Shown piece after piece: positions 21,518-38,490 of a stretch of DNA of 64,000 bases (position 1 is its first letter; every line of letters begins with the position of its first letter). A model generated the notes under the pieces. The model was not told the origin of the DNA and ran no database searches. It saw only the letters and a list, made by a program, of their open reading frames with translations. A program made the translations under genes and the position numbers. This DNA comes from Methanomassiliicoccaceae archaeon (GTDB lineage: Archaea > Thermoplasmatota > Thermoplasmata > Methanomassiliicoccales > Methanomethylophilaceae), in assembly GCA_034928305.1 (NCBI GenBank), contig JAYFOZ010000002.1, positions 372,001 through 436,000 on the forward strand, written 5' to 3'.

Positions 21518-21595
21518 GGGCCCATAGCTTAGCCTGGTTGGAGCGCCCGGCTGATAACCGGGAGGTCATGTGTTCGAATCACATTGGGCCCACCA
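21518..21595 (+). tRNA. tRNA-Ile (anticodon GAT), CCA encoded; integration target
   Basis: GGGCCCA pairs with TGGGCCC, the anticodon stem CCCGG/CCGGG encloses CTGATAA (anticodon GAT), the T-arm is GTGTTCGAATCACAT, the discriminator is A and CCA is encoded (21593-21595). TATA-like TTTATATCA lies about 30 nt upstream. The last 20 nt are repeated at 33906-33925, marking this tRNA as the attachment site of the element that follows. Confidence 0.95.
21576..21595 (+). repeat. attL: tRNA-Ile 3' end
   Basis: GAATCACATTGGGCCCACCA, part of the intact tRNA. It pairs with the copy at 33906-33925, differing at one base. The longest exact core is ATTGGGCCCACCA (13 nt). Confidence 0.85.
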
Positions 21596-21680
21596 TTTTC
21601 CATCTGGCTAGTCTGATTTTCCGAATTAATGTATTTATACGATTCACATTTCGCTTCCATTTTTTCAACTCCTTTTTCCT

Positions 21681-22583
21681 TAGATACTGAACTTATTCAT
21701 GGCGGAAGCCATGTCTCCGATGTTCACTCCGATGTACTTCTTGCAGGTCGCGAGGTCCTCGTGACCAAGCATGTCTGCTATAGTTTCGATTTTCACGCCA
21801 TCCAGCCAAAGCTGCCGGCCGAAGGTTCTGCGCAGGGTGTGATGACCGAGTTTTACGCGGCCGAGTTCATGCGGTTGTTCATCGCCTGTGCCTTGTGCTG
21901 CTCATATGTTCCGATATTGAATCCGCGGCGATGGATCAGCAGATTGTCTGGGATTTTTGTTGCAGGCCTTCTGCAGAGAACGACATCTACCTGTTCATTT
22001 CTCCATTTCATATAATCACCTAAAATCTCCTGTGTCCTTCGATGGTACGGTATATAGCGGATCTCGTCGACGACCCTGCCTTTACCGTCGATCCTGACGG
22101 TATCGCGCCCGAACGAGCATACAGTGAGCCGCAGGACCTCGACGCGCGCATTCCGAGGCACAGTTCGCAATGAACCAGAAGGTTCGTCAGGGGCTCCGCA
22201 AAATGATAATTGGCCAATGTACGGGCTTCGCTCGGAGAGAGCCAATCAACGTTCGGCTGAGAATCGTGCGGCCACCTGATGTACATCTCATTAATGGTGC
22301 TGTTGCCGTAGAATTTCATGAGTCCCGAGATCGCCGCAATATATCCCCTGCGGGTTTTGACTGCAAGCTTGTCCCGATCAAAACAATCGAGAAGGTATGT
22401 GATCGTTTTTCTGTCGATAAGCCATGGAAGCGTTTCGCAGCCGCCTGCTTCTAGTCTGATCATCACAGAATGCAGGTTCCCCTTATACGACTCGATAAAT
22501 CTGGCCTTGACTCTCCGATCTCTGCGGAGATGGATGCAGTACGACTCAATGACCGATTCGACGGATTCCGGATGGTGGCTCAT
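21681..22583 (-). pseudogene. Tyrosine recombinase (integrase), two compensating frameshifts
   Basis: N-terminal SAM-like and catalytic halves are readable but in two frames. From 22583 (MSHHPESVESVIESYCIHLR) the frame holds to about 22155, where CLGMR (first catalytic Arg) should continue into VEVLRLTVCSFGRD but that lies in another frame. The second frame runs to about 21880, then the original frame resumes with LGRVKLGHHTLRRTFGRQLW (HxxR box) and MLGHEDLATCKKYIGV (His and Tyr nucleophile). All catalytic residues survive, so either it was inactivated recently or the assembly has two indels. The first shift sits in a CGCGCG run. Start overlaps the upstream gene by 4 nt. Confidence 0.8.
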
Positions 22584-22927
22584 TTCCGCCTCCGGAGTCT
22601 GCCGAATATCTCCACACGAGACCTGGCGCTACCGGTCTCCCGTCTGGATTCATCTACACCATTATGTTTCCCTGCCGCGCGCGCTTCTATGGTGACTTTG
22701 CTCCTCTTTCCGGGTGCTTCAAGCACCGTACCGGGCTCGGGGCGACGGGCACTGCTACGGACACCTGGATGCTGTTTTACGATGGCGATCTCCACATTGC
22801 CCTCGGCTTCAAGCCTGTTGCCACCATGCCTGTTCCTGGCGTGGAAGTAGCCTTTCTCCTTTATCTCGTCCGCACGGACCGTGACTTTCTCAGCCTCAAC
22901 TTGCGGGCTGTGGCGGGACGGCTTCAT
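22580..22927 (-). CDS. Element protein A, copy 1 (unknown, basic)
   Basis: 115 residues, basic, beta-strand-like. Shared with copy 2 (23865-24209) are EAE...V.VRAD, the block AEGNVEI...KQ.P, RPEPGTVL, VTIEARAAGKHNG and the C-terminus RVEIFGRLRRRK. No known domain recognised. Translationally coupled: its start overlaps the stop of protein B copy 1 and its stop overlaps the integrase start. Confidence 0.65.
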   Translation of the reverse strand: MKPSRHSPQVEAEKVTVRADEIKEKGYFHARNRHGGNRLEAEGNVEIAIVKQHPGVRSSARRPEPGTVLEAPGKRSKVTIEARAAGKHNGVDESRRETGSARSRVEIFGRLRRRK

Positions 22928-23412
22928 CAGGCATCCTCCTTTGGTTCCGCGCCGTTCAAATTGTCCCAGTCGATATCGGTGCCCTCTGGAACCTTAAGAC
23001 TGCCGTTCCTCAGGAGACTCTCCGTTACGTCGAAACACTGGTCCTCGTCTAGACCATAGTCCATAAGATCGCACCAGCAGAATAATCCATCCTTGGGGTG
23101 CATCGCACCATACTGTGCTATCTTCTCCGCCCATTCGCGGGTGGTCTTTTCATTCTCAGGTTCATGACCGTCGCGGGCGTCTCCGAATCTTAGTCCCTCA
23201 GGCAGGGGCCAAATGCATTCATCTTCGACCTTTTCGCGAAGATTCCTGTAACATACTCTTGCCCTCACCAGCTCGATAATCAGTTCATCCTTGGTCAGCT
23301 TCTCAAGCTCTTCCCATTCGCTCTTCGTTTTTTCACCTCCCTTTGTCCGTTCTCCCCTTCCGGGGGCGGACACAGGTACGGTTTCAGGATAATTAAGGAC
23401 AGTGCTGTTCAT
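22927..23412 (-). CDS. Element protein B, copy 1 (unknown)
   Basis: 161 residues. The first ~48 residues (MNSTVLNYPETVPVSAPGRG, then ERTKGGEKTKSEWEELEKLT and KDELIIELV) are nearly identical to copy 2; the middle differs; the end DLMDYGLDEDQ...LR..GSLKVP is again shared. The conserved ends around a divergent middle suggest gene conversion or selection on the middle part. Sandwiched between the RHH gene and protein A with 4-nt overlaps. Confidence 0.65.
   Translation of the reverse strand: MNSTVLNYPETVPVSAPGRGERTKGGEKTKSEWEELEKLTKDELIIELVRARVCYRNLREKVEDECIWPLPEGLRFGDARDGHEPENEKTTREWAEKIAQYGAMHPKDGLFCWCDLMDYGLDEDQCFDVTESLLRNGSLKVPEGTDIDWDNLNGAEPKEDA
23281..23412 (-). repeat. Direct repeat, 5' part of protein B copy 1
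   Basis: About 132 nt nearly identical (a handful of mismatches) to 24527-24658, offset 1246 nt. It covers the start of both B genes and records a recent duplication of the A/B cassette. Confidence 0.8.
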
Positions 23413-23582
23413 GCAGAGGCCTCATTTTCTCTGTTCAGTTCCGCCAGATATGCGGAAATGGCGGTGCGGCAGAAGTCGGCACGTGAACGGCCGTAACCCA
23501 TGCCTACGGCCCTATCGATCCCCTCTGCCTCTTTTTTGGAGATAGTGACCTTGATGTAAGTTGGGTTGCACATACGTACCAT
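23409..23582 (-). CDS. Ribbon-helix-helix regulator 1
   Basis: 57 residues: N-terminal strand TYIKVTISKKEAEGIDRAVG and helices YGRSRADFCRTAISAYLAEL typical of CopG/Arc-type RHH repressors. The start at 23582 is chosen because GGAGGT lies 7 nt before it; the ATG at 23597 overlaps that Shine-Dalgarno. First gene of the leftward RHH-B-A-integrase operon, and likely its autoregulator through the palindromes upstream. Confidence 0.8.
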   Translation of the reverse strand: MVRMCNPTYIKVTISKKEAEGIDRAVGMGYGRSRADFCRTAISAYLAELNRENEASA

Positions 23583-23604
23583 ATTAGTTACCTCCATTAT
23601 ATAT

Positions 23605-23661
23605 GTTACTGTACGGTAACTGAACAGTGCCCATAGAAAGATTATTGGAGTTACCGTTCAG
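23605..23661. promoter_or_regulatory. Divergent promoter region with palindromic operators
   Basis: Between the two RHH genes lies GTTACTGTACGGTAAC (23605-23620, palindrome with one mismatch pair) followed by TGAACAG, and a second half-site GTTACCGTTCAG (23650-23661), whose complement CTGAACGGTAAC repeats the first. This spacing suits tandem RHH dimers controlling both directions. Confidence 0.65.
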
Positions 23662-23667
23662 ATATAT

Positions 23668-23853
23668 ATGGCCAACACCAGGGCGATAAAGGTAATGGCG
23701 CCGGAGAACGTCATCGACGCGATAGATGCAGAAGTTGCCAAAGGCAACTTTACCGGGAGAGGAGACTTTGCGCTCTATGCCATCAGGTTTTACCTCGATA
23801 AAATCAGAGAAGAAGAGCGCGCCAGAAGGTCTGCGGGCGCCGATAAGGGCTAA
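23668..23853 (+). CDS. Ribbon-helix-helix regulator 2
   Basis: 61 residues, MANTRAIKVMAPENVIDAID then AEVAKGNFTGRGDFALYAIR and a charged tail. RHH fold as in CopG-like antirepressors. Divergent from regulator 1 across an 85-nt control region; its 3' end faces protein A copy 2. Confidence 0.75.
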   Translation: MANTRAIKVMAPENVIDAIDAEVAKGNFTGRGDFALYAIRFYLDKIREEERARRSAGADKG

Positions 23854-23864
23854 ATCCGCGGCAG

Positions 23865-24209
23865 TCATTTCTTCGCCCTCCTGAGTTTGCCGAAGATCCT
23901 CACATCTCTACTGGCGTTAGCGACATCCTTACCATTGTGTCGGCCCTGCTTCTGGATGCGCTTCGACTCGATAATAACTGATTCTTCCTCTCCCCCCTTC
24001 AGTATGGTTCCGGGCCTTGGGCGGAAGATATCATCGGCATTGTTTTCGGGTTTCTGTCTGTTGACCTTTATTTCGACGTTTCCTTTGGCACTCGTCCTGT
24101 TACCGTTATGCTTGGCGTTGCGGTATATTTTTTCAGGCTTCTCGATACTGTCGGCCCTTACGGATATGCTTTCGGCCTCATGATCGGGTTTTCCGCGGCG
24201 GGACTTCAT
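23865..24209 (-). CDS. Element protein A, copy 2 (unknown, basic)
   Basis: 114 residues, MKSRRGKPDHEAESISVRAD at the start and DVRIFGKLRRAKK at the end; clear homologue of 22580-22927 with the shared GNVEIKVNRQKP and RPRPGTIL blocks. Strongly basic. Starts inside the stop of protein B copy 2 (4-nt overlap), repeating the B-A order of copy 1. Confidence 0.65.
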   Translation of the reverse strand: MKSRRGKPDHEAESISVRADSIEKPEKIYRNAKHNGNRTSAKGNVEIKVNRQKPENNADDIFRPRPGTILKGGEEESVIIESKRIQKQGRHNGKDVANASRDVRIFGKLRRAKK

Positions 24210-24658
24210 TCTCCATCACCGCCGTACCTCACTCCGTCCGGTAGCTTCAGCTCGCCTTTGCGGCGGAGCTCGCGACATACCTCATAGCTCTGGTCTTCAT
24301 CGAGACCGTAGTCCATGAGATCTATCGGATGGAACTCTTCTTTAATCGTGTGATTTGCCGCATATATTGCCACGGCCTCGGCCCATTTATGTGTGGTCGG
24401 TTCCCCGGCGCACACCCATCCATCGACATCTCTGCTCTTTGGCTCCATGTACGGCCAAGGGCAGTTGTCGTCCTGTTCGACGCGGATGATGCCGTACATG
24501 TTCTTCCAATGTACGAGCTCGATGATCAGTTCATCCTTGGTCAGCTTCTCAAGCTCTTCCCATTCGCTCTTCGTTTTTTCACCTCCCTTTGTCCGTTCTC
24601 CCCTTCCGGGGGCGGACTCAAGTAGGGTTTCGGGATAATTAAGGACAGTGCTGTTCAT
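24206..24658 (-). CDS. Element protein B, copy 2 (unknown)
   Basis: 150 residues. N-terminus almost identical to copy 1, divergent middle (NMYGIIRVEQDDNCPWPYME), and shared end DLMDYGLDEDQSYEVCRELR then KLPDG. Unlike copy 1 no RHH gene precedes it. Function unknown. Confidence 0.65.
   Translation of the reverse strand: MNSTVLNYPETLLESAPGRGERTKGGEKTKSEWEELEKLTKDELIIELVHWKNMYGIIRVEQDDNCPWPYMEPKSRDVDGWVCAGEPTTHKWAEAVAIYAANHTIKEEFHPIDLMDYGLDEDQSYEVCRELRRKGELKLPDGVRYGGDGE
24527..24658 (-). repeat. Direct repeat, 5' part of protein B copy 2
   Basis: Partner of 23281-23412; see that entry. The near identity at DNA level, stronger than in the rest of the gene, points to recent duplication or gene conversion. 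Confidence 0.8.
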
Positions 24659-24742
24659 GGAGAGGCCTCCTTAATGGACATCATCAGATCAGCTCCAGCA
24701 CAGAGCGAACAACAACATGATCGGTGCAGGTCCAGATGTCCT

Positions 24743-25045
24743 TCATCGTTTCGAGATGTAATCTATGTCTTTGTTCGTCAGGGACTTAAGATCCCCTCTG
24801 GTCCCTTTGCGGACAATCAGGAGGTTCCCGACCAGTGCCTGAAAGCACCCGCGGACCGCGGTGACCTCTCTGTCGCGAAGTATTCCTTCATCGTCGCAGA
24901 TGATCGCATACTCCCTTCCATCGGACCCGATCCGGCGTGTCACTATGTCGATGTAACCGCCGATGGCCTCATGCAACGAAGACAGGTCGTCATCCACATC
25001 GATGGGCCCATGGGCGCCGTCCTCCCTGACTTGATAGGCTATCAT
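24743..25045 (-). CDS. DUF3846-like protein
   Basis: About 100 residues: MIAYQVREDGAHGPIDVDDD, LSSLHEAIGGYIDIVTRRIG, then REYAIICDDEGILRDREVTA and FQALVGNLLIVRKGTRGDLK. The order of a short acidic strand, GGYI(D/E)VV, a DEEG turn and a (V)GNLLIV strand fits DUF3846, a small domain common in phages and mobile elements. ATG 25045 has GGTGAT upstream and is preferred over 25075. Confidence 0.6.
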   Translation of the reverse strand: MIAYQVREDGAHGPIDVDDDLSSLHEAIGGYIDIVTRRIGSDGREYAIICDDEGILRDREVTAVRGCFQALVGNLLIVRKGTRGDLKSLTNKDIDYISKR

Positions 25046-25094
25046 GCGATCACCATGATGGATGGCGGCTCGCATGTCTCGAGGCCGGTGTACA

Positions 25095-25256
25095 TCATGC
25101 CACGACCAGGCTCTTGCGGAGGACGATCTCCCCGTCGTTCCTTCGGACGATCAAGATCTTGTCGCCGATCTCCACACCCATCTCTTTGCAGAAATCCTTG
25201 GTTAACGCAATGCGCCATCCTACGGATATTTTCGGAGTTACGATTATTTCAGCCAT
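25095..25256 (-). CDS. AbrB/MazE-type swapped-hairpin DNA-binding protein
   Basis: 53 residues: MAEIIVTPKISVGWRIALTK, then DFCKEMGVEIGDKILIVRRN and DGEIVLRKSLVVA. This is the SpoVT-AbrB fold (strand, W-R-I-A-L-T-K-D turn, helix, G-D-K strand). Its stop is about 50 nt before the DUF3846 start, same strand. Likely an element transcription regulator or antitoxin-type protein; no toxin partner is obvious. Confidence 0.75.
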   Translation of the reverse strand: MAEIIVTPKISVGWRIALTKDFCKEMGVEIGDKILIVRRNDGEIVLRKSLVVA

Positions 25257-25370
25257 AGTATCACATTAGTTAGCTATGTGATAATACTACTCGCGGTATA
25301 TATGGTTTAGCATTAAGCTAAGTGCTTATTCGCCCATCTTATTTAGAACGGAAAAAGCGGTTAGCTAATT

Positions 25371-25709
25371 GTGGACCGCCTAGTGGACCTTCTCGGAGAC
25401 ATGAATAAAATCCGTATGGTTTTAGTCTTGGAAAGAGAAGGTACGCTGAAAAAAACAGATTTATATTCTAAGATCAAAGCAAACAATGCCAACGCAGCAA
25501 AACTAGAGGAACTGGAAACAGAGGGCCTCATCGTGATGACCACCGACACCTTTGCCAACAATATGACGATGGTGTCGCTGACCCTTGAAGGTCGCGCGAT
25601 TGCCAGAAAGCTGCTGGAGATTGAAGGGATCCTGTCGGGCGAGCTAGCTGCGAGTGGTGCCGAGATGGATTACGAGCCATCTTCGGAGCAAAGGGATTCT
25701 GTGAGTTGA
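25371..25709 (+). CDS. Winged-helix transcription regulator
   Basis: 112 residues with a winged HTH: MNKIRMVLVLEREGTLKKTD, LYSKIKANNANAAKLEELET, EGLIVMTTDTFANNMTMVSL and TLEGRAIARKLLEIEGIL. Start may be GTG 25371 or the ATG at 25401. It precedes the surface-protein gene by 57 nt and may control it. Confidence 0.65.
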   Translation: MDRLVDLLGDMNKIRMVLVLEREGTLKKTDLYSKIKANNANAAKLEELETEGLIVMTTDTFANNMTMVSLTLEGRAIARKLLEIEGILSGELAASGAEMDYEPSSEQRDSVS

Positions 25710-25766
25710 TCACAGAATAAATTATGAGCAAAAAGAGGAAACTGAATTCAGGGTTGTTGATTTTCT

Positions 25767-26645
25767 ATGTCGGTTAAACAATTAATTGGAATGGCAGTCT
25801 CCGTTTTGGTGGCCGCAACCATTATGGTTTGCGCCATACCGGAGATCGAAGCAACCGAAATTCCCGAGGATGCCGAGATTGCAGACCAGGGGGAGTTCTG
25901 GTCACTGACAATCCATACGATGTTTACCGGCTCCGATGCGGAAACCATAGAATGGGACTTCGGCGACGGAACTGCTGTTTCGACCGAGTGGAATCCCACG
26001 CACACGTATGCCGAGCCGGGAGATTATGTTGTAACTCAGACAGTATGGAACTCATACAATGGCGGGTCTACTACAGTGGGATACTATCTGCTGCACATGA
26101 AGGGCAACCCTTACGTCGAATATGTAATGCCTGCCGGAGCCCCGGCCATGGAACGCACCTATGTGGAGACACACGATGCTGCAGTCGAGCCTGAGGACCC
26201 CGTATGGGAAGGACACGACTTCCTCGGATGGTTCGCCGATGAGGAACTGACCGTACCGATGGTTTGGCCGACAGATATGACCGCACCCCTCACGGTTTAC
26301 GCCTCGTATTCCAGCATCACGCCCATCGAGCACACGCTGACAATTATAGGATCCGACGGGACTGTCGCGGACACTGTAACAGTACGGGATGGACAGACAG
26401 CAACCATGCCGGTAGCACCAGAGGGAAAGACCGTCACTTATTACACGGATTCGGACAGGACCACTGAGTTCGATTGGACCACACCCGTGACCTCAGACGT
26501 AACTGTATATCAGACTGTTTCTGACGGGGCATCGATTGCTGAAGATTCCGACAAACCAATCATTAATGGTACCGATCTGGCCGTTGTTGTAGGATTTATC
26601 ATATTCGGAATAGCTGCAGTATTTCTGTTCCTTCGTTTTAAGTGA
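25767..26645 (+). CDS. Secreted surface protein: PKD domain and InlB-type repeat
   Basis: 292 residues: signal helix (LIGMAVSVLVAATIMVCAIP), PKD domain with WDFGDGTAVSTEWNPTHTY and a following YVVTQTVWN strand (about 55-110), a Listeria-Bacteroides/InlB-type repeat EGHDFLGWFADEELTVPMVW (about 150-180), a second similar repeat, and a C-terminal membrane helix LAVVVGFIIFGIAAVFLFLRFK. It is cargo of the integrative element and likely alters the host cell surface. Confidence 0.8.
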   Translation: MSVKQLIGMAVSVLVAATIMVCAIPEIEATEIPEDAEIADQGEFWSLTIHTMFTGSDAETIEWDFGDGTAVSTEWNPTHTYAEPGDYVVTQTVWNSYNGGSTTVGYYLLHMKGNPYVEYVMPAGAPAMERTYVETHDAAVEPEDPVWEGHDFLGWFADEELTVPMVWPTDMTAPLTVYASYSSITPIEHTLTIIGSDGTVADTVTVRDGQTATMPVAPEGKTVTYYTDSDRTTEFDWTTPVTSDVTVYQTVSDGASIAEDSDKPIINGTDLAVVVGFIIFGIAAVFLFLRFK

Positions 26646-26655
26646 GATGATGTGA

Positions 26656-26946
26656 ATGTTCAGCGATGCAAAAAGATTGGACCCCGGGCCGCTGACAGTC
26701 ACAAACTTAAATGGCCGTACTTACTGTTAGGAATATTCGCGGCTCCTGCCAGAGCGGTCTTTATTATTCCAAGAGGAAAACATCCCGTTTGAAGATGATT
26801 TGTCTCAAATATTGCGAGGCGGACGAGTTGGTTATCTTGACAAGGCTACTAAGCCCTACAAAACCAACTACGCCGAGCTGACCGATCTTGGATACAAGGT
26901 AGCGCGGAAGCTATCGGCCGCCGGCAACATTATGGATGGTCTGTAG
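26656..26946 (+). pseudogene. Winged-helix-like ORF interrupted by in-frame TAG
   Basis: From ATG 26656 (MFSDAKRLDPGPLTVTNLNG) the frame meets TAG at 26728 and then continues EYSRLLPERSLLFQEENIPF, ...YLDKATKPYKTNYAELTDLG, YKVARKL to a second TAG at 26944, and from there to TAA at 27001, 15 nt before the ParB-like gene. The second part ends like the winged-helix protein at 25371 (LTLEGRAIARKLL). Either the gene is broken (another frame also gives KWPYLLLGIFAAPARAVFII just before, suggesting a frameshift) or TAG is read as an amino acid. Both readings are open. Confidence 0.45.
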
Positions 26947-27017
26947 CCGGAGGCAGAAACAAATTGTAGTGCACCTGCAAAGCAGGAGCATAAGAGGACA
27001 TAATGTGAGATGAGAGT

Positions 27018-28370
27018 ATGGGGTTTGAAAGGAAGAAAATCGGTCTCGGGAAGCTGATGATCAGCACCGACAATCCAAGGTTCAAGGAGACCAAGGATCA
27101 GAATGAAGCGATTGCTATCATGCTCGCCAAAAAAGGCGACGAGATATACAACATGGCCCGCGACATGCTAGAGGTTGGTCAGAATCCAACGGTTGATATC
27201 TCAGTCTACGCAAGCCCTGATGGGACATACAAGGTCAAGGACGGGAACAGAAGGGTTACAGCCATCAAGCTCATGATGCATCCATCCTTGGTTCCTAAGG
27301 CAGACAAGGTCAACAAAAAGAGATATAAGGAGCTCAACGGCAAGATAGATCGCTCCAAGTATAGGTACATCGACTGCATCGTGTTCGATGACGAGAACGA
27401 GGCGGACCTTTGGGTAGAGAGGAACCACAGCGGATTCCAGAACGGAATAGGTCAGGTCCAATGGGATGCTATTCAGAAAAAGAGGTTTGCATCCAAACGG
27501 AGTAATACCGTGGATCCTGCGGTCCAGGTTTATGACTATGTCACAGCCCAGAGGGGAATCGAAGCAAGGGACAAATTCCCGATAACAACCTTGGAGAGAT
27601 TACTGAGATCGACTGTGTTCCGCGACGCAATGGGATACAGGATAGAAGATACCGGTGTGATCGTCGAGCGGGACACCGAGCAGTTCTTAGATGAAATGGC
27701 GCAGGTCATCGAAGACATATCAGGTGACGATTACACTGTCCGGAACTTCATGACCACCGATGACATCTCGACTTACATCTCCGATAGACGTGAAGCGGGC
27801 AGGTTCAGACCGTATGAGATTTCAGAGGCTTTCCACATCTCGGAAGCTGAGAAGCCTCCAGAACCTGTACCGGTGAAGGCTCCCTCTGAAGCAGTGCCTT
27901 GCCGGATGCCCACATCCAAACGCCAGACTTTAATACCCAAGGATGTGGACATGGACATACGTCCGGAAAAAATCAACGACATATACGATGAGCTCAAGAA
28001 ACTCAACGTGAATAGTTTGAGGAATTGCGGCTCGGTCATGCTGAGGGTGTTCCTGGACCTTTCGATAAACTACTACCTCGAAGAGTACGAAGACCACGTG
28101 GTCAATAAAAAGAAACTTTCGGAGGTCAGAACAAACACTGATTTTACTCTCGATGCAAGGATGAATCGTGTCCTGGACGACCTGAAGAATTTGAAAAAGA
28201 TAGATGACAGCATCTACAAAACAATCCATGCGATCATGAGGGATGAAAATCTTCAACTAGTGGTCGAGCTGAACCAATACGTACACAACTATCACTTTAA
28301 TCCAAAGACTGATGATTTGAAGGTTCTATGGAACAATTTGGAAGGATTTTTCAGGGCGATATTCTCGTAA
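27018..28370 (+). CDS. ParB/Srx-fold protein with helical C-terminal domain
   Basis: 450 residues. N-terminal ParB-like domain (about 1-140) with STDNPRFKETKDQNEAIAIM and the box VKDGNRRVTAIKLM, where GNRR replaces the GERRxRA of plasmid ParB. After a Pro-rich linker (about 290-310) comes a helical domain from MDIRPEKINDIYDELKKLNV through LRVFLDLSINYYLEE to VELNQYVHNYHFNPKTDDLK, similar to helical (HEPN-like) domains attached to ParB proteins in defence islands. The Dam-type methyltransferase begins 32 nt downstream, suggesting one unit. Role in partition is unlikely; a defence or DNA-modification role is inferred. Confidence 0.65.
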   Translation: MGFERKKIGLGKLMISTDNPRFKETKDQNEAIAIMLAKKGDEIYNMARDMLEVGQNPTVDISVYASPDGTYKVKDGNRRVTAIKLMMHPSLVPKADKVNKKRYKELNGKIDRSKYRYIDCIVFDDENEADLWVERNHSGFQNGIGQVQWDAIQKKRFASKRSNTVDPAVQVYDYVTAQRGIEARDKFPITTLERLLRSTVFRDAMGYRIEDTGVIVERDTEQFLDEMAQVIEDISGDDYTVRNFMTTDDISTYISDRREAGRFRPYEISEAFHISEAEKPPEPVPVKAPSEAVPCRMPTSKRQTLIPKDVDMDIRPEKINDIYDELKKLNVNSLRNCGSVMLRVFLDLSINYYLEEYEDHVVNKKKLSEVRTNTDFTLDARMNRVLDDLKNLKKIDDSIYKTIHAIMRDENLQLVVELNQYVHNYHFNPKTDDLKVLWNNLEGFFRAIFS

Positions 28371-28401
28371 GGTATTTGGCCAAGGAAGTGAATAGGGCAT
28401 C

Positions 28402-29295
28402 ATGGCGTACCATTCCCCGCTGAGATACCCTGGCGGCAAAGGCAAACTGTCGGGTTATTTCGAAAGCCTCGTCTCGGCCAACGGGCTGGACGGCGGGACG
28501 TACGTCGAACCGTTCGCCGGAGGCGCGGGTGTGGCTACCTCGCTCTTGGCAGAGGGCAAGGTTTCCAAGATAGTCCTCAACGACGCCGACCGTTCGATTT
28601 ATGCTCTGTGGTATTCGGTTAAGCACTACGGAAACGAACTGATCGAGGCCATCGATTCCATCAATGTCAACATAGATGAATGGAAGAAGCAGCGCGAATT
28701 CCAGAGGAACAAGGAGAATGAGGATATCTTCGACCTTGGTTTCTCCACGCTCTACATGAACAGGACGAACAGATCGGGAATCCTCAATGGTGGTGTCATC
28801 GGTGGCCTGGACCAGAAGGGAAAGTACAAGATTGATGCCAGGTTCAACAAGAAGGCCCTTAAGGCACGCATAGCCGCCTTGTCAAAGTTATCAGACAGCA
28901 TCGAGGTGTCCTGTAAGGACGCATCCAAGTTCTTGGCCGAGGATTTGAACGAGTACGATAAGGATGCGACTCTTGTCTACATCGACCCCCCTTATTTCGA
29001 TAAGGGCAGCTCTTTGTACATGAACCACTACTCGGCCGAAGATCATGAGGACCTTGCCAAAGTGATATTGGGACTCCGTCACAAGTGGGTGTTGAGCTAT
29101 GATGACGTGCCTGAAATCGTGAAGATATATGGTGATATTGTGCCGCAGAGGTTCACGCTCAAGTACAGTTCTTACGAACGCAAGATGGGCAAAGAGCTAT
29201 TCTTCTTCAGCGACAATCTGAACTCGGACCTATGCGGTTGCAACAGCAAGGCCGTCACCGGATTAGATTCCGGGGATTCAATCTGCATTGAATAA
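28402..29295 (+). CDS. DNA adenine methyltransferase (D12/Dam class)
   Basis: 297 residues. Motif X/I region SPLRYPGGKGKLSGYF and PFAGGAGVATSLL, acceptor motif ND, and catalytic DPPY in ATLVYIDPPYFDKGSSLY place it in the D12 class of N6-adenine methyltransferases. Full length, but target sequence unknown. The tail after FFFSDNLN looks low-complexity. Encoded just behind the ParB-like gene; no cognate endonuclease is adjacent. Confidence 0.88.
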   Translation: MAYHSPLRYPGGKGKLSGYFESLVSANGLDGGTYVEPFAGGAGVATSLLAEGKVSKIVLNDADRSIYALWYSVKHYGNELIEAIDSINVNIDEWKKQREFQRNKENEDIFDLGFSTLYMNRTNRSGILNGGVIGGLDQKGKYKIDARFNKKALKARIAALSKLSDSIEVSCKDASKFLAEDLNEYDKDATLVYIDPPYFDKGSSLYMNHYSAEDHEDLAKVILGLRHKWVLSYDDVPEIVKIYGDIVPQRFTLKYSSYERKMGKELFFFSDNLNSDLCGCNSKAVTGLDSGDSICIE

Positions 29296-29302
29296 TCCAA
29301 AC

Positions 29303-29359
29303 TTTAGGTGACAGTACCGCTGCGACTTCTTTGAACGACAGCCCGCACATATCCTGCAT
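29303..29359 (-). pseudogene. Fragment of the FREA-HTH gene family
   Basis: A short minus-strand remnant reads MQDMCGLSFKEVAAVLSPKV, matching LQDQCxLTFREAVAVLSP of the two homologues at 29389 and 32505. There is no room for the HTH half; its 3' end abuts the stop of the methyltransferase. It records a third copy lost by deletion. Confidence 0.6.
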
Positions 29360-29388
29360 AGGCCGTCTACCCCCCGATTCCCTTGCTT

Positions 29389-29658
29389 TCAGAACCTCTG
29401 CGTGAAGTAGAACGGCACGAATTCCGCCACTGCCATCTCGTCAGTACCCACTTTGGCATAAATCTTGTCGAACCCGCGTCTGCTCGCGTTACATATGGCT
29501 TGCCTGCTGACGCCCCATTTCTCCGCCAGAAGGTCGTTATAGTCGTAATGTGTGAGAACAGCCACGGCCTCTCTGAACGTCAGATCGCATTGGTCCTGCA
29601 ATCTGAACAAACGCAGAGCGAATTCTGCTTCCCCGACTCTTTCAACCCATGGGTCCAT
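29389..29658 (-). CDS. Small FREA-HTH protein (family member 4)
   Basis: 89 residues in the order leader MDPWVERVGEAEFALRLF, motif LQDQCDLTFREAVAVL, then HTH LAEKWGVSRQAICNASRRGF and DKIYAKV. The HTH resembles sigma-like or transposase-type DNA-binding helices. Homologues lie at 32187, 32505 and 33517. No known family recognised. Upstream are direct repeats ATGTAAC-CTAA-ATGTAAC next to a TATA-like ATTAAATAA. Confidence 0.7.
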   Translation of the reverse strand: MDPWVERVGEAEFALRLFRLQDQCDLTFREAVAVLTHYDYNDLLAEKWGVSRQAICNASRRGFDKIYAKVGTDEMAVAEFVPFYFTQRF

Positions 29659-29659
29659 G

Positions 29660-29690
29660 ATGTTACATTTAGGTTACATTATTTAATGAT
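29660..29690 (-). promoter_or_regulatory. Promoter/operator of FREA-HTH gene 4
   Basis: On the minus strand ATTAAATAATGTAACCTAAA then TGTAAC leads to the ATG. The ATGTAAC direct repeat flanks CTAA and the same layout (ATTAAATAACGTGACCTAAA then CGTTAA) precedes the homologue at 33446, so both copies share one control region. Confidence 0.55.
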
Positions 29691-29790
29691 TCCAAGGCAA
29701 GACGCGTTATTGGTTTCGGAGGTGCTTTCCCGCCCTATAGCGCCCTGGCGGAGAAATTCGATAGTGCTGGTTGCTTCGACGAGGCTTTCA

Positions 29791-29807
29791 GGCTGGAGCC
29801 TCCAGCC
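29791..29807. repeat. Inverted repeat upstream of the cytosine methyltransferase
   Basis: GGCTGGAG-C-CTCCAGCC is a perfect 8-bp inverted repeat, 55 nt before the methyltransferase ATG and close to a TATA-like CTTTATAG. It may be a regulatory operator or a hairpin; no controller gene is recognised. Confidence 0.5.
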
Positions 29808-29861
29808 CCTTCCGAGGCGGATACGATAACCTTTATAGCAGCCCTCTTTCATGTCGATACG

Positions 29862-30854
29862 ATGTCTGAGAAACATACTGCAGGTAGCATGTTCGCTGGC
29901 ATAGGTGGCATATGCCTAGGTTTTGAAACAGCTGGAGTGGACATTGTTTGGGCGAACGAAATCGATCCATACGCATGTATGACGTACAGACATAATTTCA
30001 ATGGAGCGCCGTTCCTGCATGAAGAAGACATCTACAAAGTTGATGAGAATTCTATTCCGAAGATCGACATACTAGTCGCCGGATTCCCTTGCCAGGCATT
30101 CTCGATAGCAGGATACAGAAAAGGATTCGAAGACGCACGCGGTGCGCTATTCTATGAAGTCATGAGAGTCATAAGGGCGAAGAAACCGCGTGCGGTGTTC
30201 CTAGAGAATGTGAAAAATCTCGAGAATCACGATGATGGGAACACCTATAGGGCCATCAAGAGACTTCTGACAGATGAGGGGTACCTTGTCATCGAGAAAG
30301 TCATGAACACGATGGAGTACAGCAACATCCCGCAGAACAGGGAGAGAATCTATGTCGTAGGATTCAAGAAACACGATGATGGGACGTGCCCAGAATTCGA
30401 TGCATTCAAATTTCCAGACCCTGTGAAACTGAAAGCGACGATACACGATATCATCAATATCCATGAGAAAAAGGACGATTCGTTTTATTATGGTCTTAAT
30501 AACCCATACTATGAGAAGTTGGATGCCGCGATGACCAATCCCGATACGATATACCAGTGGCGCAGAGTGTACGTACGCGAGAACAAGAGCAATGTTTGCC
30601 CGACATTGACAGCTAACATGGGGACCGGGGGCCACAATGTACCCCTCATCCGCGACGATTTTGGCATCAGGAAACTCACACCGGAAGAGTGCCTTGCATT
30701 CCAGGGATTTCCCCGCGATTACAGTTTCCCGGAGATGGCAAACAGCCACAAATACAAACAAGCTGGCAATTCCGTTTCGGTCCCCGTCATATCGCGCATA
30801 GCGCATAACATTATCACGTCGATGAGAGATACGGACAGTAATGTCAATTTATGA
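29862..30854 (+). CDS. DNA (cytosine-5) methyltransferase
   Basis: 330 residues. Motif I SMFAGIGGICLGFETAG, catalytic motif IV AGFPCQAFSIAGYRKGF, motif VI FLENVKNL, motif VIII QNRERIYVVGF and motifs IX/X (GTGGHNVPL, QAGNSVSVPVISRIA) are all in order, so the enzyme looks active. The target-recognition region between VIII and IX is short. It overlaps the endonuclease gene by 14 nt, forming a type II restriction-modification pair. Confidence 0.93.
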   Translation: MSEKHTAGSMFAGIGGICLGFETAGVDIVWANEIDPYACMTYRHNFNGAPFLHEEDIYKVDENSIPKIDILVAGFPCQAFSIAGYRKGFEDARGALFYEVMRVIRAKKPRAVFLENVKNLENHDDGNTYRAIKRLLTDEGYLVIEKVMNTMEYSNIPQNRERIYVVGFKKHDDGTCPEFDAFKFPDPVKLKATIHDIINIHEKKDDSFYYGLNNPYYEKLDAAMTNPDTIYQWRRVYVRENKSNVCPTLTANMGTGGHNVPLIRDDFGIRKLTPEECLAFQGFPRDYSFPEMANSHKYKQAGNSVSVPVISRIAHNIITSMRDTDSNVNL

Positions 30855-31929
30855 GCGCTCATCCGAAGAACCTCGCCAAAGGTACCAGAAATACCTGATG
30901 GCTATGAGCGCGATCAGCCGTCTTTTCTCAGACAGCGACAAACCGTATCTTGACTATAGGATCGTGGAGAATCTATTCTGCAAATGCTTCGGAGCAGAGA
31001 ACCTCTCCCGTTCGTGCATCGCCGTCGATGCGAGGGTGGGGGCAGAGGGGATAGGAATCAAGACTTTCGTCGACAACAGCCCGTTCCAGAAGATTGCCGA
31101 ATTCGACAAGAAACGTTCAGAGGTCGATTCTGGAGACGCATACGAAGATGCGTGCAAGGTATCAGAGTTGAGGAACACACGTCTTGATTTCGCCACCGAT
31201 GCGTACGCGATAGATTCGTTATCATACCATTATGTTCTCCGCCACGACTTCTCACTGTCGGTGCACGAATGTCCGATGGATCACATCGATTTCGATTCGT
31301 TGAGATTAGTCAGCGAGACAGTAAAAGGATTTGAATTCGAAGACAGAATGAACAGATACAGATTCAACAGGGCGAAGAGCACGCTGTTCAAAAGCTTCCC
31401 TCTCGACAAACCAGTTTACGAATTCGGAGTTTCGTATATCGATAGTCCGGAGGATGCACTGTTGAAGATCCTCGAGATGGTCGAGGAGCATCCGGCTGAG
31501 GCAGAAGAGGATACATTGATACTTCCATTGTTCTCATCCCGCAAAGGCGGATATGTGCCCGAACGCAGCGGTTTGAACCAATGGAACGCTATGGGGCGTC
31601 CCCGTAGCTATGATGAAGTGTACATACCGTACAATAAAGAGTACCGTAACGCCAGCATAGGGTTTTTCCCTGCACGTGATACTCCTTTCGATCTGCTTCT
31701 GCCTAATGGCAAGCACATGTCTGCAAAGGTATGCCAAGCCGACGGAAAGGCGATTATGTCCAATCCCAACAAGGATCTAGGCGAATGGCTCCTCAGGGAT
31801 GTTCTGAAACTCAAAGACGGTCAACTTGTTACTATGGATATCCTTGATGATAAAGGCGTCAACGCAGTGATATTCACAAAACACAAAAATGGAACATATT
31901 CAGTTGACTTCTCATATGTTGACGAATGA
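30841..31929 (+). CDS. Putative type II restriction endonuclease (B3-like C-terminus)
   Basis: 362 residues. The C-terminal ~100 residues (TPFDLLLPNGKHMSAKVCQA, DGKAIMSNPNKDLGEWLLRD and VLKLKDGQLVTMDIL) match the B3/EcoRII-N-like recognition domain of NgoFVII-type enzymes. The N-terminal half has no phospholipase-D HxK motif; instead AVDARVGAEGIGIKTF suggests a PD-(D/E)xK-like core with Asp and Lys. It should cut unmodified DNA at the site of the overlapping methyltransferase; the site is unknown. Restriction role is well supported by context, fold assignment less so. Confidence 0.7.
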   Translation: MSIYERSSEEPRQRYQKYLMAMSAISRLFSDSDKPYLDYRIVENLFCKCFGAENLSRSCIAVDARVGAEGIGIKTFVDNSPFQKIAEFDKKRSEVDSGDAYEDACKVSELRNTRLDFATDAYAIDSLSYHYVLRHDFSLSVHECPMDHIDFDSLRLVSETVKGFEFEDRMNRYRFNRAKSTLFKSFPLDKPVYEFGVSYIDSPEDALLKILEMVEEHPAEAEEDTLILPLFSSRKGGYVPERSGLNQWNAMGRPRSYDEVYIPYNKEYRNASIGFFPARDTPFDLLLPNGKHMSAKVCQADGKAIMSNPNKDLGEWLLRDVLKLKDGQLVTMDILDDKGVNAVIFTKHKNGTYSVDFSYVDE

Positions 31930-32186
31930 CTCATAAGCCATTTTTCAATCAGAATACATGCCGAAAATGAACAGTAGCGCACCCTCGAACCATGACATCC
32001 CTGAGATTGAGGTCCGAGATCAGTCGACCCACAGCAACGGAGCGGCCTTAATATATGGTTCGATGATTTCCAGCACCGGAGCTTCGCATGCGGCTATCTT
32101 CCGCCTCGCGTTCTTCAGCCTTGAGTGCAGCGCCTGCCTGGATATCCCGAAGACGTGGGGAGGTCTTCCGAACCTTGGCTGGGCCC

Positions 32187-32474
32187 TCAGTCAGCAAGGA
32201 TGAACGCTGGAAAATCCTCTCCGCAGAACTCTTCTAAGGTCTTTCCCGTCTTGCGTAATTTCCTTTCCGATCTGAGGCTGGCCATTCTGTAAGCGTCCTG
32301 GTTCATTCCGAATTCTCTTGAAATGGCCAATGCGCTCTCGCCCCTGTCGATCATCGCGATCCTTGCCTCGCGGAAGCTCATCCCCGTCTCCTTCTGGAGC
32401 CTGTATATGCACATTGCCATATTGTATTGCTGCTCCCTGAAATGTGTCCTGATCCGCTTCAATTCATCGTCCAT
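32187..32474 (-). CDS. Small FREA-HTH protein (family member 3)
   Basis: 95 residues: N-terminal helix, YRLQKETGMSFREARIAMID, HTH-like ALAISREFGMNQDAYRMASL, and a basic/acidic tail ending FPAFILAD. More diverged than the other members. ATG 32474 is preferred over TTG 32483; a strong TATA-like ATTATATAAT lies about 22 nt upstream, so the message may be nearly leaderless. Confidence 0.6.
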   Translation of the reverse strand: MDDELKRIRTHFREQQYNMAMCIYRLQKETGMSFREARIAMIDRGESALAISREFGMNQDAYRMASLRSERKLRKTGKTLEEFCGEDFPAFILAD

Positions 32475-32504
32475 GTTGAACAATTATGTTAATATTATAT
32501 AATA

Positions 32505-33398
32505 TTATTTCTTAACATCCCTTCTATGTTTATCAAGCGTCGTCTTGGCGCTTTCTGAGGAATAAGACATTTTCAGCTTAGAAATTTCTGATTCATCGAA
32601 TTTCGTCTCCACAGCATCGATGGCCCGCTTGCCACGAAGCCCCTTGAGCCCATACTCCGCATTCCCAACGAATATCTTCCTGTCTCTATCAACGAGCTCA
32701 TGCCCTAATTTGTCATTCCAATTGGCCATACTACCGTGATAGCCTGTATTGTCCACCTTCTTGTATGGTGTGAGGCGCGTCAATGTCTCTGCGGTTGTGG
32801 CGGCTTCTTCCAGATTTCTATCTTCACCGGATATTGAGTCTTCTACCCTAGACCTTGTGACCTCTCCATTCCGTTTATTATCTTTCAAACGAAGATGATG
32901 TGTGAACTCATGGGTGATCGTGCTATCTGATTTCGAGTAGGGAGGATTTAGACGTATTGTCTTGTTCACCGGGTCGTAAGATCCTGCATCTCCCATATTC
33001 TCGACAACGACCGTCACTCCGTTACCAGATGCCATCTTGTCGAGCTCCCCATTGGTAAAATTATCCATCAGGACCCTACGTATTTCAGCATCTACGTCCT
33101 TTTTGGCATCGAGGATCATTATCTTCCTTGAAGCATCATACTTCTGCCGGGAATATCCCCTTATTTTTCCCCAGTCCTTGGTTGTATCGATACCGCATAT
33201 GTCACTTTCATTAGGGTGCGCCCACCATTCTTCTCCGACTTTCGATAGGATCTCATCCCAGCCACGTCGGCTAGCGTTATGGACGGCTTCTTTGGTCGTG
33301 CCCCATTTTTCTGCCAGCTTGCCTGCATGCGACGACGGAGACAGCACTGCTACGGCCTCTCTGAACGTAAGATTGCATTGGTCCTGCAATCCGAACAA
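32505..33398 (-). CDS. FREA-HTH protein fused to zincin-like domain; 5' end interrupted
   Basis: The frame begins FGLQDQCNLTFREAVAVLSP, HTH KLAEKWGTTKEAVHNASRRG, and continues for 220 residues with a zincin-like region: strand VTVVVENMG, then ITHEFTHHLRL, an HExxH metal motif. The ancestral ATG is at 33446 (MDPWVERVG as in 29389), but the 12th codon is TAA (33411-33413, GAA in the homologue). So expression needs a downstream start (TTG 33398 here) or the gene is a recent pseudogene. The peptidase-like domain could be a toxin or effector; the substrate is unknown. Confidence 0.6.
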   Translation of the reverse strand: MFGLQDQCNLTFREAVAVLSPSSHAGKLAEKWGTTKEAVHNASRRGWDEILSKVGEEWWAHPNESDICGIDTTKDWGKIRGYSRQKYDASRKIMILDAKKDVDAEIRRVLMDNFTNGELDKMASGNGVTVVVENMGDAGSYDPVNKTIRLNPPYSKSDSTITHEFTHHLRLKDNKRNGEVTRSRVEDSISGEDRNLEEAATTAETLTRLTPYKKVDNTGYHGSMANWNDKLGHELVDRDRKIFVGNAEYGLKGLRGKRAIDAVETKFDESEISKLKMSYSSESAKTTLDKHRRDVKK

Positions 33399-33516
33399 AC
33401 GCAGAGAGAATTATGCTCCCCCGACTCTTTCGACCCATGGGTCCATGATTTAACGTTTAGGTCACGTTATTTAATAATTTTTATTCAGTTCCTTAGCCAG
33501 TCTTTTACATATAGTT

Positions 33517-33783
33517 TCAGAATGGATGCCAGAATCTAGCAGGAGCTATTGTATACATCAAATCCTCGGCGCCGTTGGCGAACGCACTGATTTTATCCCA
33601 CCCTCTCCTGTCAAGGTTCATTACTGCTTCGGGAGTTACGCCCCAGTCTTTCGCCAATTGTTTTTTGTAAGCAGGAGTCGACAGAACGACGAATGCTTCT
33701 TTGAATGTCAGACCGGCTTTTTCCTGAAGTTTAAACATATGTTCATAGAAATCACATCCTCCTCTGTAAACTTCTTCGCTCAT
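33517..33783 (-). CDS. Small FREA-HTH protein (family member 1)
   Basis: 88 residues: MSEEVYRGGCDFYEHMFKLQ, EKAGLTFKEAFVVL, HTH LAKDWGVTPEAVMNLDRRGW, DKISAFANG and a short tail. ATG 33783 is chosen because it puts the LQ motif at the same distance from the start as in the homologue at 29389; the longer frame opens at TTG 33912 inside attR. Confidence 0.65.
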   Translation of the reverse strand: MSEEVYRGGCDFYEHMFKLQEKAGLTFKEAFVVLSTPAYKKQLAKDWGVTPEAVMNLDRRGWDKISAFANGAEDLMYTIAPARFWHPF

Positions 33784-33905
33784 AGTCCTAACGTATGTGT
33801 TAGGATCATTTATTACTTCTTCCTTCAGATGCTTTTTGGTTACGAGATCGGCAACGTCGGATTCGCTTGAAAAAAAGTATGAGCCAGCATCGCTGACGGG
33901 TTCAA

Positions 33906-33925
33906 GAATCAAATTGGGCCCACCA
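33906..33925. repeat. attR: duplicated tRNA-Ile 3' end
   Basis: GAATCAAATTGGGCCCACCA, identical to attL except C to A at the seventh base; followed by a T-rich tract. Marks the right end of the integrated element. Confidence 0.85.
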
Positions 33926-34056
33926 CTTTTTCTTTTTTAAATCGGTATCGTCCACAGTTGTTCCTGTTCGTCATAACATATTTTGATCGGCATTTTATTT
34001 TTCTATATGCTCTGATTTTCACACTAAAATGGAAATCAATGTATTTTTTATTCATA

Positions 34057-34109
34057 CATGGATGTAACTAGAGAAAATTATTAATACTGTATATCTAATA
34101 TTATACGCT
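34057..34109 (+). promoter_or_regulatory. Conserved promoter block, RNA copy 1
   Basis: CATGGATGTAACTAG followed by an A/T-rich TATA-like AATTATTAATAC and TGTATATC, ending 1 nt before the RNA repeat. The same block stands at the same distance (53 nt) before copy 2. Confidence 0.65.
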
Positions 34110-34376
34110 GCACGCGTGGGAATCGCACGGGCAGAGTAAGACGCTGGAGAAAGAACCCGTTGTGGTAAAGCTGCTCACTTCCGAAAAGTCCAGAGCCCCA
34201 CGGCATGTGGATGATAAACCGCGGGCGTTATCGACGTTCTGCGGCGAGGCACCCATGTGTGAGGATTCCTCATAAGTTGAGGATGAAGCGTAAGGTGTCC
34301 GATGATCCCGAGAAAACTCCCTGGATGGAGCGATTTCTTGGTATGGTGAAGACCCCGCGCAAGGCCCCACGCGTGC
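34110..34376 (+). ncRNA. Candidate structured ncRNA, copy 1 (267 nt), unknown family
   Basis: One of two 267-nt direct repeats. The first 11 nt GCACGCGTGGG pair perfectly with the last 11 CCCACGCGTGC. Inner stems conserved in both copies: GGGC (20-23) with GCCC (86-89), hairpin CCTCA/TGAGG (159-173), CTCC/GGAG (208-221). A stem at 227-230/240-243 is TCTT/AAGA here and GCTCG/CGAGC in copy 2. Six T follow shortly (34382-34387). Open frames across it are not conserved between copies. No signature of SRP RNA, RNase P RNA or tmRNA is seen. The strand is set by the upstream TATA-like block. Confidence 0.7.
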
Positions 34377-34381
34377 TACCT

Positions 34382-34387
34382 GTTTTT
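34382..34387 (+). terminator. T6 run after RNA copy 1
   Basis: TTTTTT within CCTGTTTTTTCTTG begins 6 nt after the terminal helix, a suitable archaeal terminator. Copy 2 has only a weaker T-rich stretch. Confidence 0.5.
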
Positions 34388-34665
34388 TCTTGTTTGCTGT
34401 TTATTGGCTCAATGTCTATTTTTGAAATCGGTCGAGAGCAAAAACTCCCGAATCCCCGCATCGTTATCTTCTTTTTTGGGAGTATCGAACGATTCAATGT
34501 GTTCTCGACATACGATAAACGTCGGGTCATTAAAGTAAATTATACAGCTGGCAACACGTTTTTTGAGATTTGTGACGTTCTTGATAATAATGCGAGCCGA
34601 TCGGCGTTCCATCCATGCCCCGTCCGATCTGACCATTCGATTAAAATAAGAATAATTAATACGCG
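34388..34665. other. Spacer between the RNA repeats, no gene seen
   Basis: AT-rich spacer without a supported ORF on either strand. It contains an imperfect inverted repeat ACTCCC...GGGAGT around 34445-34485. Frames spanning it (for example a long plus-strand frame covering both RNA copies) are chance reading of the repeats. Confidence 0.5.
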
Positions 34666-34718
34666 CATGGATGTAACTAGGGATAATTATAAATATTGTA
34701 TATCACCTATTAGTAGTT
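34666..34718 (+). promoter_or_regulatory. Conserved promoter block, RNA copy 2
   Basis: CATGGATGTAACTAG, then TATA-like AATTATAAATATTG (centre about 28 nt before the RNA start) and TGTATATC; matches the block in front of copy 1. Confidence 0.65.
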
Positions 34719-34985
34719 GCACGCGTGGGAATCGCACGGGCGGAATAAGAAGGTGGATAAATATTCCATACTGGGCGAGGTCGCTCACTTCCGAAACGCT
34801 CAGAGCCCCCAGCATGTGGATGATAGACCACGGGCGTCGATGATGTCTGTGACGAGGTGCCCACATGTGAAGATTCCTCACAAGTTGAGGATGAAGCGTA
34901 AGGTGTCCGATGATCCCGAGAAAACTCCCTGGGTGGAGCAATTGCTCGGGAATGGTGACGAGCCGGCGTAAGGCCCCACGCGTGC
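34719..34985 (+). ncRNA. Candidate structured ncRNA, copy 2 (267 nt), unknown family
   Basis: Second copy, same length, same 11-bp terminal helix. Compared with copy 1 the middle diverges but pairing is kept: pair G112-C133 of copy 1 becomes A112-U132; T227-A243 becomes G226-C245; T230-A240 becomes C229-G242. The region from about 150 to 215 (AAGTTGAGGATGAAGCGTAA then GGTGTCCGATGATCCCGAGA) is almost invariant, as expected for a functional core. Function unknown. Confidence 0.7.
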
Positions 34986-34999
34986 TATCTAGATTGTTC

Positions 35000-35587
35000 T
35001 CAGAACCTTATGTTGGAAGTTATGTAACGCAGGGCGTACACGTCCTCGAACTTGGCCGAGGGCACGAGGGCCTTCCCGAGGAATCTGGTTTTGTCCCATC
35101 TTTTTTCTGACAGCGTCGCCAGGCGGTTCAATATATCTTTTACTTCGGATGCCAAAACATGGTTAAAGAAAAATGAGACGATTGCGGCCGGCAGAGCGTT
35201 CTTCATGAAATCATCGATGGCATTCCAGTTCCGATCATCAATATTATCATTGATCTGCGAGAATTTCCGGCGGACTTCAGACATGTGCGAATCGGCGATG
35301 ACGCCGAGGGTCTCCGCAGGCGTCCCGCTTATAGTTCTTCGGACCCTGTCTCTGATGATCGAAATATCGCCTGTGAATTCCCTGCCTATCCTGTTATAAG
35401 AGAATAGTTCCGACAACTCCTGTTTTGTGACGACAAATATGCTTTCTGCCGTGATAGCGGCGTCTGCACCATCATTGACAGGAGATGTAAAGCCGGTATT
35501 CTCCATAGATACGGAGGTGCCGCATCCCGGACAGAATCTGGCGCCTTCATTAAGGGAACGACCGCAAACATTGCAATATTTACTCAT
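35000..35587 (-). CDS. Double zinc-ribbon protein, unknown helical domain
   Basis: 195 residues. N-terminal zinc ribbon MSKYCNVCGRSLNEGARFCP then GCG (four Cys), then a charged helical region FVVTKQELSELFSYNRIGRE...RDRVRRTISGTPAETLGVIA...MKNALPAAIVSFFFNHVLAS. The start at 35587 has AGGTG just upstream. The same ribbon tops many archaeal signalling or membrane proteins; no enzymatic motif here. Confidence 0.65.
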   Translation of the reverse strand: MSKYCNVCGRSLNEGARFCPGCGTSVSMENTGFTSPVNDGADAAITAESIFVVTKQELSELFSYNRIGREFTGDISIIRDRVRRTISGTPAETLGVIADSHMSEVRRKFSQINDNIDDRNWNAIDDFMKNALPAAIVSFFFNHVLASEVKDILNRLATLSEKRWDKTRFLGKALVPSAKFEDVYALRYITSNIRF

Positions 35588-35729
35588 GGCACCTGGTACT
35601 TGCACCGGTCATTTTTATTTTTCTGAACAACTGGTTTTCTCTGTATGTTTAAAGAAATGTTATAAGAAATAAATGGTAAGTCGCGGACAGATTCCAAAAC
35701 GAATAACTATGGTCCGTATCGGTTTTTAG

Positions 35730-35805
35730 TGGTGGGCCCGCCCGGATTTGAACCGGAGTCTATAGCTCCCGAAGCTACAAGTATACCAAGCTAGCCCACG
35801 GGCCC
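35730..35805 (-). tRNA. tRNA-Pro (anticodon CGG), CCA encoded
   Basis: Acceptor GGGCCCG pairs with CGGGCCC, the anticodon stem GTAGC/GCTAT encloses TTCGGGA with anticodon CGG, and the T-arm is CCGGTTCAAATCCGG. Discriminator A at 35733 and CCA at 35730-35732. Confidence 0.93.
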
Positions 35806-35856
35806 GACTGAAGCGTGTAGTCCGCATCATGATAAAAAGATTTGTGTTGAAAAGGT

Positions 35857-38490
<2,634 letters not shown>

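Follow-up and report, generated by a model that had tools for sequence, protein, structure and literature searches.

A previously uncatalogued structured RNA family in two genera of Methanomassiliicoccales

The window analysed here, a stretch of 64,000 nucleotides, carries a tandem pair of RNA genes that is real and belongs to a larger RNA family. Each copy very probably forms its own transcription unit for a stable structured noncoding RNA of ~250-270 nt; that the RNA is transcribed and expressed is something we infer from sequence comparison. We recovered 18 copies (one of them in two halves) from nine genomes in two genera of the Methanomassiliicoccales. The family is previously uncatalogued, in the sense that it is in no known RNA family tested, although structured orphan RNAs are not in themselves new. 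Apart from ribosomal, SRP and RNase P RNA, we know of very few large families of noncoding RNA in archaea. The new RNA has its own predicted promoter, a five-helix fold supported by covariation and no known relative, and its carriers, RumEn M2 among them, are methanogens that have reduced genomes and are akin to rumen lineages. We consider it somewhat likely (with a probability of roughly 0.6) that the RNA acts in trans, most likely as the RNA part of a ribonucleoprotein.

The tandem pair belongs to a larger RNA family

The original prediction described two tandem repeats of 267 nt with the same 11-bp terminal helix, and we confirmed both at 34110-34376 (copy 1, +) and 34719-34985 (copy 2, +). 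Their terminal arms are identical (GCACGCGTGGG / CCCACGCGTGC): 34110-34120 pairs with 34366-34376 in copy 1 and 34719-34729 with 34975-34985 in copy 2 (all +). When folded by energy, both copies beat 200 of 200 dinucleotide shuffles (z -3.36 for copy 1 and -3.42 for copy 2) and each has five helices, P1-P5. A T6 run that lies 7 nt past copy 1 (34383-34388, +) is a possible terminator, and no equivalent run was found downstream of copy 2. None of the three outcomes named beforehand as refuting it (an Rfam match, a lack of homologues with supporting covariation, conserved coding) occurred, and the interpretation of the pair as noncoding RNA genes is supported, with the change that the two copies are part of a wider family.

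A DNA search of the window's own genome with the repeats returned only the tandem pair. The upstream block, with up to three mismatches allowed, gave three sites there, the third of which lies 50 nt 5′ of a diverged third copy (C2:238182-238431, ~168 kb from the pair) in whose terminal helix a U-A pair has become C-G. A covariance model built from six sequences (R1) found members in every one of the five same-genus genomes and in three more that belong to a second genus. Neither a wider model (R2), run on 147 genomes of the order, nor a broadened one (R3), run with more sensitive filters on 40 genomes, gave a convincing member beyond these two genera. Weak R2/R3 matches in G009 (the full-length one), G016 and G136 were rejected as apparent coding sequence without promoter or P1; further sub-threshold matches, namely those in G102, G029 and G019, a partial one in G009 and one in G005, fall outside that inspection. 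In a pattern scan of ~85,000 species the carriers were Methanomassiliicoccales, including RumEn M2, UBA370, UBA404, UBA421, UBA72 and UBA381, while matches in a Gammaproteobacterium, Inhella, Caballeronia and a Methanophagales were taken as chance, being about the number expected for the pattern. The viral contigs searched for the RNA gave no match.

The window's genus has two to three copies per well-covered genome and the second genus one or two. At the window locus there is a tandem pair in the window's own genome, in G001 (where two contigs each hold part of copy 1) and, in very diverged form, in G005; G002-G004 have a single copy there. The G005 pair was assigned to this locus by eye, from a neighbouring gene that resembles a glycine-betaine-binding protein; such a gene adjoins the RNA in G003, G004 and G001. 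A second locus holds one copy each in the window's genome and in G002-G004, and G005 has one copy at another site. The G001 assembly is 71% complete, and its second-locus copy may be absent from the assembly only. A tree of chorismate synthase, the second-locus neighbour, reached no additional members. In this tree neither g9, which grouped with the window's genus, nor g13, which grouped with the second genus, had a detected copy, but it is a tree of one gene with weak deep branches and cannot decide between loss, transfer and divergence beyond detection; the diverged G005 pair shows that very fast divergence is possible. Copies were found in only 2 of the 30 genera of the order, and on this single-gene tree the two are not sisters, which points either to a dispensable RNA or to unexplained spread or divergence.

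The claim that open reading frames are not conserved between the copies extends to the whole family, across which no conserved reading frame was found on either strand. Protein coding was rejected on the grounds that no frame stays open across members and that the indels, with alignment gaps mostly of 1, 2 or 5 nt, break frame. The ~65 nt that had been described as nearly invariant are so among the copies at the window locus, but this constancy is lost in other family members.

Fold and covariation

The members have a common core that consists of P1, P2, P3, P4 and the base of P5. P1 (11-12 bp) joins both ends of the RNA and closes a junction with four arms, of which P2, P3 and P5 are long and P4 is a short hairpin. 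In copy 1 the 5′ strand of P2 (34129-34133) pairs with 34187-34191, its innermost pair being broken in this copy; that of P3 (34203-34210) pairs with 34253-34260, that of P4 (34267-34271) with 34279-34283, and that of the P5 base (34288-34291) with 34357-34360 (all +). In P1, 100% of cells are paired and 4 of the 11 pairs have compensatory changes, and P2 occurs among members as GGGCG/CGCCC, GGGUG/CACCC, GAGUG/CGCUC and GGACG/CGUCC. In an alignment of 13 sequences, standard pairs fill 98.6% of the pair cells, versus 28-55% when the partners are slid by 1-3 columns, and 11 pairs have changed on both sides. The covariation score for these sequences is 0.317 versus 0.216 when shuffled, with none of 500 shuffles as high, a result that is not a probability and that concerns a structure derived partly from the same sequences. 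Adding the two very diverged G005 copies gave 15 pairs with changes on both sides and 94.0% of cells paired, which probably understates the pairing of these two copies given that their alignment is imperfect in P2-P4. Folded alone by energy, the same two copies form the same five helices P1-P5, and this separate folding is the strongest independent support for the fold.

The sequence of the arms has mostly turned over with pairing kept, and the junction strands are constant: GAUYGCA after P1, GCCCYRCA between P2 and P3, UGAAGCG after P4 and CGUAAGG before P1. The predicted fold is thus supported by covariation, which the homologues in the nine genomes carry. Three individual compensations had been cited in the original prediction. 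The first (G112-C133 to A112-U132) holds across relatives, where G-C, A-U and C-G all occur, but the other two (T227-A243 to G226-C245 and T230-A240 to C229-G242) fail, as each occupies different columns of the alignment in copy 1 and copy 2, and several or nearly all of the orthologues do not keep the pairs.

Promoter and shared upstream element

The block CATGGATGTAACTAG begins exactly 53 nt upstream of each window copy (34057 and 34666), as had been claimed. The upstream element TGGATGTAACT lies at 34059-34069 before copy 1 and at 34668-34678 before copy 2, in both cases with its GGAT at -50, and TATA-like boxes lie at 34077-34086 (~30 nt before the helix of copy 1) and at 34686-34695 (5′ of copy 2; all +). 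Throughout the family, all 18 copies have a GGATRYAAC that begins 48-50 nt 5′ of P1, and by eye each also has an AT-rich TATA-like box ~30 nt before P1, a few of which were missed by a scripted pattern. Because this archaeal-type promoter sits at a fixed distance before the terminal helix, transcription is predicted to start at P1 or within a base or two of it.

The conserved block stands as a feature at a fixed distance, but it is not private to the RNA and is instead a promoter element common to other genes. In the window's own genome it is also found upstream of an MtbC-like corrinoid-protein gene (at 295 nt) and of the gene for ribosomal protein L44e (at 232 nt). A search for the element with a TATA box in 80 other genomes gave 15 matches, of which three precede genes for corrinoid proteins and another three a long RNA of genus g4. 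Genes for corrinoid methyl-transfer proteins (MtbC-like, MtaC-like and others) are preceded by the element, at ~150-300 nt, in several genera (L096 at position 1501, which is C1:311665 of the window's genome, L136, L143 and L147); these protein matches are below NCBI naming cut-offs, so that the exact substrate is unassigned. At L096 and L136 the element sits within a near-palindrome, TGGAT..ATCCA. The distribution of the element suggests a tie between the RNA and the methyl-group metabolism by which its carriers make methane. Our tentative proposal, which is a possible rather than a probable one, is that one upstream factor acts on both the RNA promoter and the genes for methyl-transfer corrinoid proteins, in which case the RNA would probably be made together with the genes of methylotrophic methanogenesis. 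The element may instead mark any strongly expressed gene, given that one match precedes the L44e gene, and this would weaken the link to methyl metabolism.

The g4 stretch is long (roughly 0.7-1.2 kb), conserved and hairpin-rich, and is apparently a noncoding RNA with a GGATRYAAC and TATA promoter. Its three loci (L144 in G099, -; L145 in G102, -; L146 in G104, +) start from ~position 1540 of the strand read, and it has no match in Rfam. These three RNAs were found through the promoter, so that their sharing of it is partly a product of selection, whereas their likeness to each other downstream is not. The g4 RNA resembles the new RNA in coming from the same archaeal family, in its upstream element and TATA spacing and in being outside Rfam; it differs in being far longer and in having no recognisable sequence similarity, and model R3 gave no match at the three loci.

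Proposed role and genomic setting

The neighbours of the RNA are unrelated metabolic or housekeeping genes at the other loci: chorismate synthase and a GHMP kinase in the window's genome, CorA and NRDD in G005, and a nitrogenase-like oxidoreductase and an ACT protein in the second genus. Because the flanking genes differ between loci, the RNA would act in trans and not in cis. The role of RNA part of a ribonucleoprotein is favoured because P1 and the junction strands stay constant while the arms change freely, and one or more putative proteins would then read the conserved P1 end together with the junction strands. A bolder version, in which this is a new class of archaeal ribonucleoprotein RNA that is limited to some Methanomassiliicoccales, is controlled by the corrinoid-protein element and serves methylotrophic methanogenesis, we regard as rather doubtful. 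If true, it would, together with the unrelated g4 RNA, point to a layer at which RNA controls or organises processes in these methanogens.

Archaeal SRP RNA (RF01857) offers a parallel, being ~300 nt long, with a terminal helix that joins the ends and an independent gene, and acting in trans; the new RNA differs from it in its five-arm layout and its fast sequence change. Archaeal RNase P RNA (RF00373; ~290 nt) is likewise multi-helical and encoded by an independent gene. The OLE, ROOL and GOLLD RNAs are larger and come from bacteria or their phages. Like the new RNA they are structured noncoding RNAs that comparative analysis brought to light ahead of any known function, but unlike it they have Rfam models, none of which matches the new RNA. 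One report describes OLE, ROOL and GOLLD as forming RNA-only homo-oligomers (PMC12286853).

The main rival to a ribonucleoprotein role is that of a small regulatory RNA which pairs with mRNAs and whose structure serves mainly for stability. The speed at which the sequence changes, the presence of several diverged copies in one genome and an own promoter common to metabolic genes would all suit such a regulator, but the conserved positions lie in the terminal helix and the junction strands rather than in a free single-stranded seed, and at 250-270 nt, with five helices, the RNA is large for a regulator of this kind, which makes this reading unlikely. Much less likely still is a known RNA (SRP, RNase P or guide RNA) that has changed beyond the reach of Rfam. 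The fast evolution of the family allows such a hidden kinship in principle. However, a scan of 33000-36500 with Rfam 15 (4227 families, E<=10) gave only tRNA-Pro and nothing on the RNA pair, and a scan of diverged members (E<=10) gave only tRNAs and sub-threshold matches outside the RNAs, which bears out the earlier claim that no family is recognised. SRP RNA and RNase P RNA, which had been said not to fit, were rejected: neither RF01857 nor RF00373 matched at E<=10, and normal examples of both lie elsewhere in the genome (C2:626252-626558, 166.9 bits, and C2:318603-318897, 200.7 bits, respectively). Rfam's coverage of archaeal guide RNAs is believed to be thin, and this limits the finding that no box H/ACA or C/D guide family matched at E<=10; there is no fixed ACA box after P2, where several members read UGCA. 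Our search for literature on noncoding or small RNAs of Methanomassiliicoccales found nothing relevant.

It is highly improbable that the copies are non-autonomous, MITE-like mobile elements in which terminal inverted repeats of 11-12 bp merely resemble an RNA helix. The perfection of these repeats, the tandem arrangement, the difference in loci between genomes and the presence of an integrated element next door are what such a reading would draw on. Set against these are a promoter that lies outside the repeats and yet is kept at a fixed distance in every copy, internal arms that covary, the persistence of copies at the same sites in most of the genus's species, the lack of a burst of near-identical copies (the genome has only three, of which one is strongly diverged) and the fact that no target-site duplication is seen at the ends of the window copies. 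A cis-acting leader or riboswitch would also be a conserved structured stretch adjoining a gene, but at the window locus (35000-35605, -) and at the second locus alike, the first gene downstream lies on the other strand, and the neighbours change from locus to locus, which leaves this reading barely credible.

The pair sits between the end of an element integrated at a tRNA-Ile gene and the zinc-ribbon protein gene at 35000-35605, which lies outside the RNA and adjoins the RNA locus in relatives too. The tRNA-Ile in question occupies 21518-21595, and the far end of the element is marked by 13 bp at 33913-33925 that repeat the tRNA 3′ end, which fits the earlier statement that the pair lies just outside the attR of a mobile element. 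The RNA belongs to the host chromosome and not to the element, because in G004 an intact tRNA-Ile stands ~0.5 kb from the single RNA gene (L007). The tRNA-Ile beside the RNA locus is probably a repeated integration site, since in G003 (L006, ~2150-2250) the tRNA-Ile end by the RNA gene also seems to have been split off by inserted DNA. Within the element (21518-33925), the gene at 29862-30854 matches phage DNA methyltransferases and that at 32505-33398 is metallo-protease-like. The frames nearest the tRNA (21853-22245 and 22020-22583, -) look like a broken integrase and had no match in Pfam. A 131-aa element ORF has no Pfam or PHROG match and is one of those that, by eye, carry a similar short stretch (LQ..ACLTFREAVAVL-like and then WG...A..N..RRGWD); the stretch is present at 29389-29658, 32187-32483, 32505-33398 and 33517-33912 (all -), as if a small domain had been repeated.
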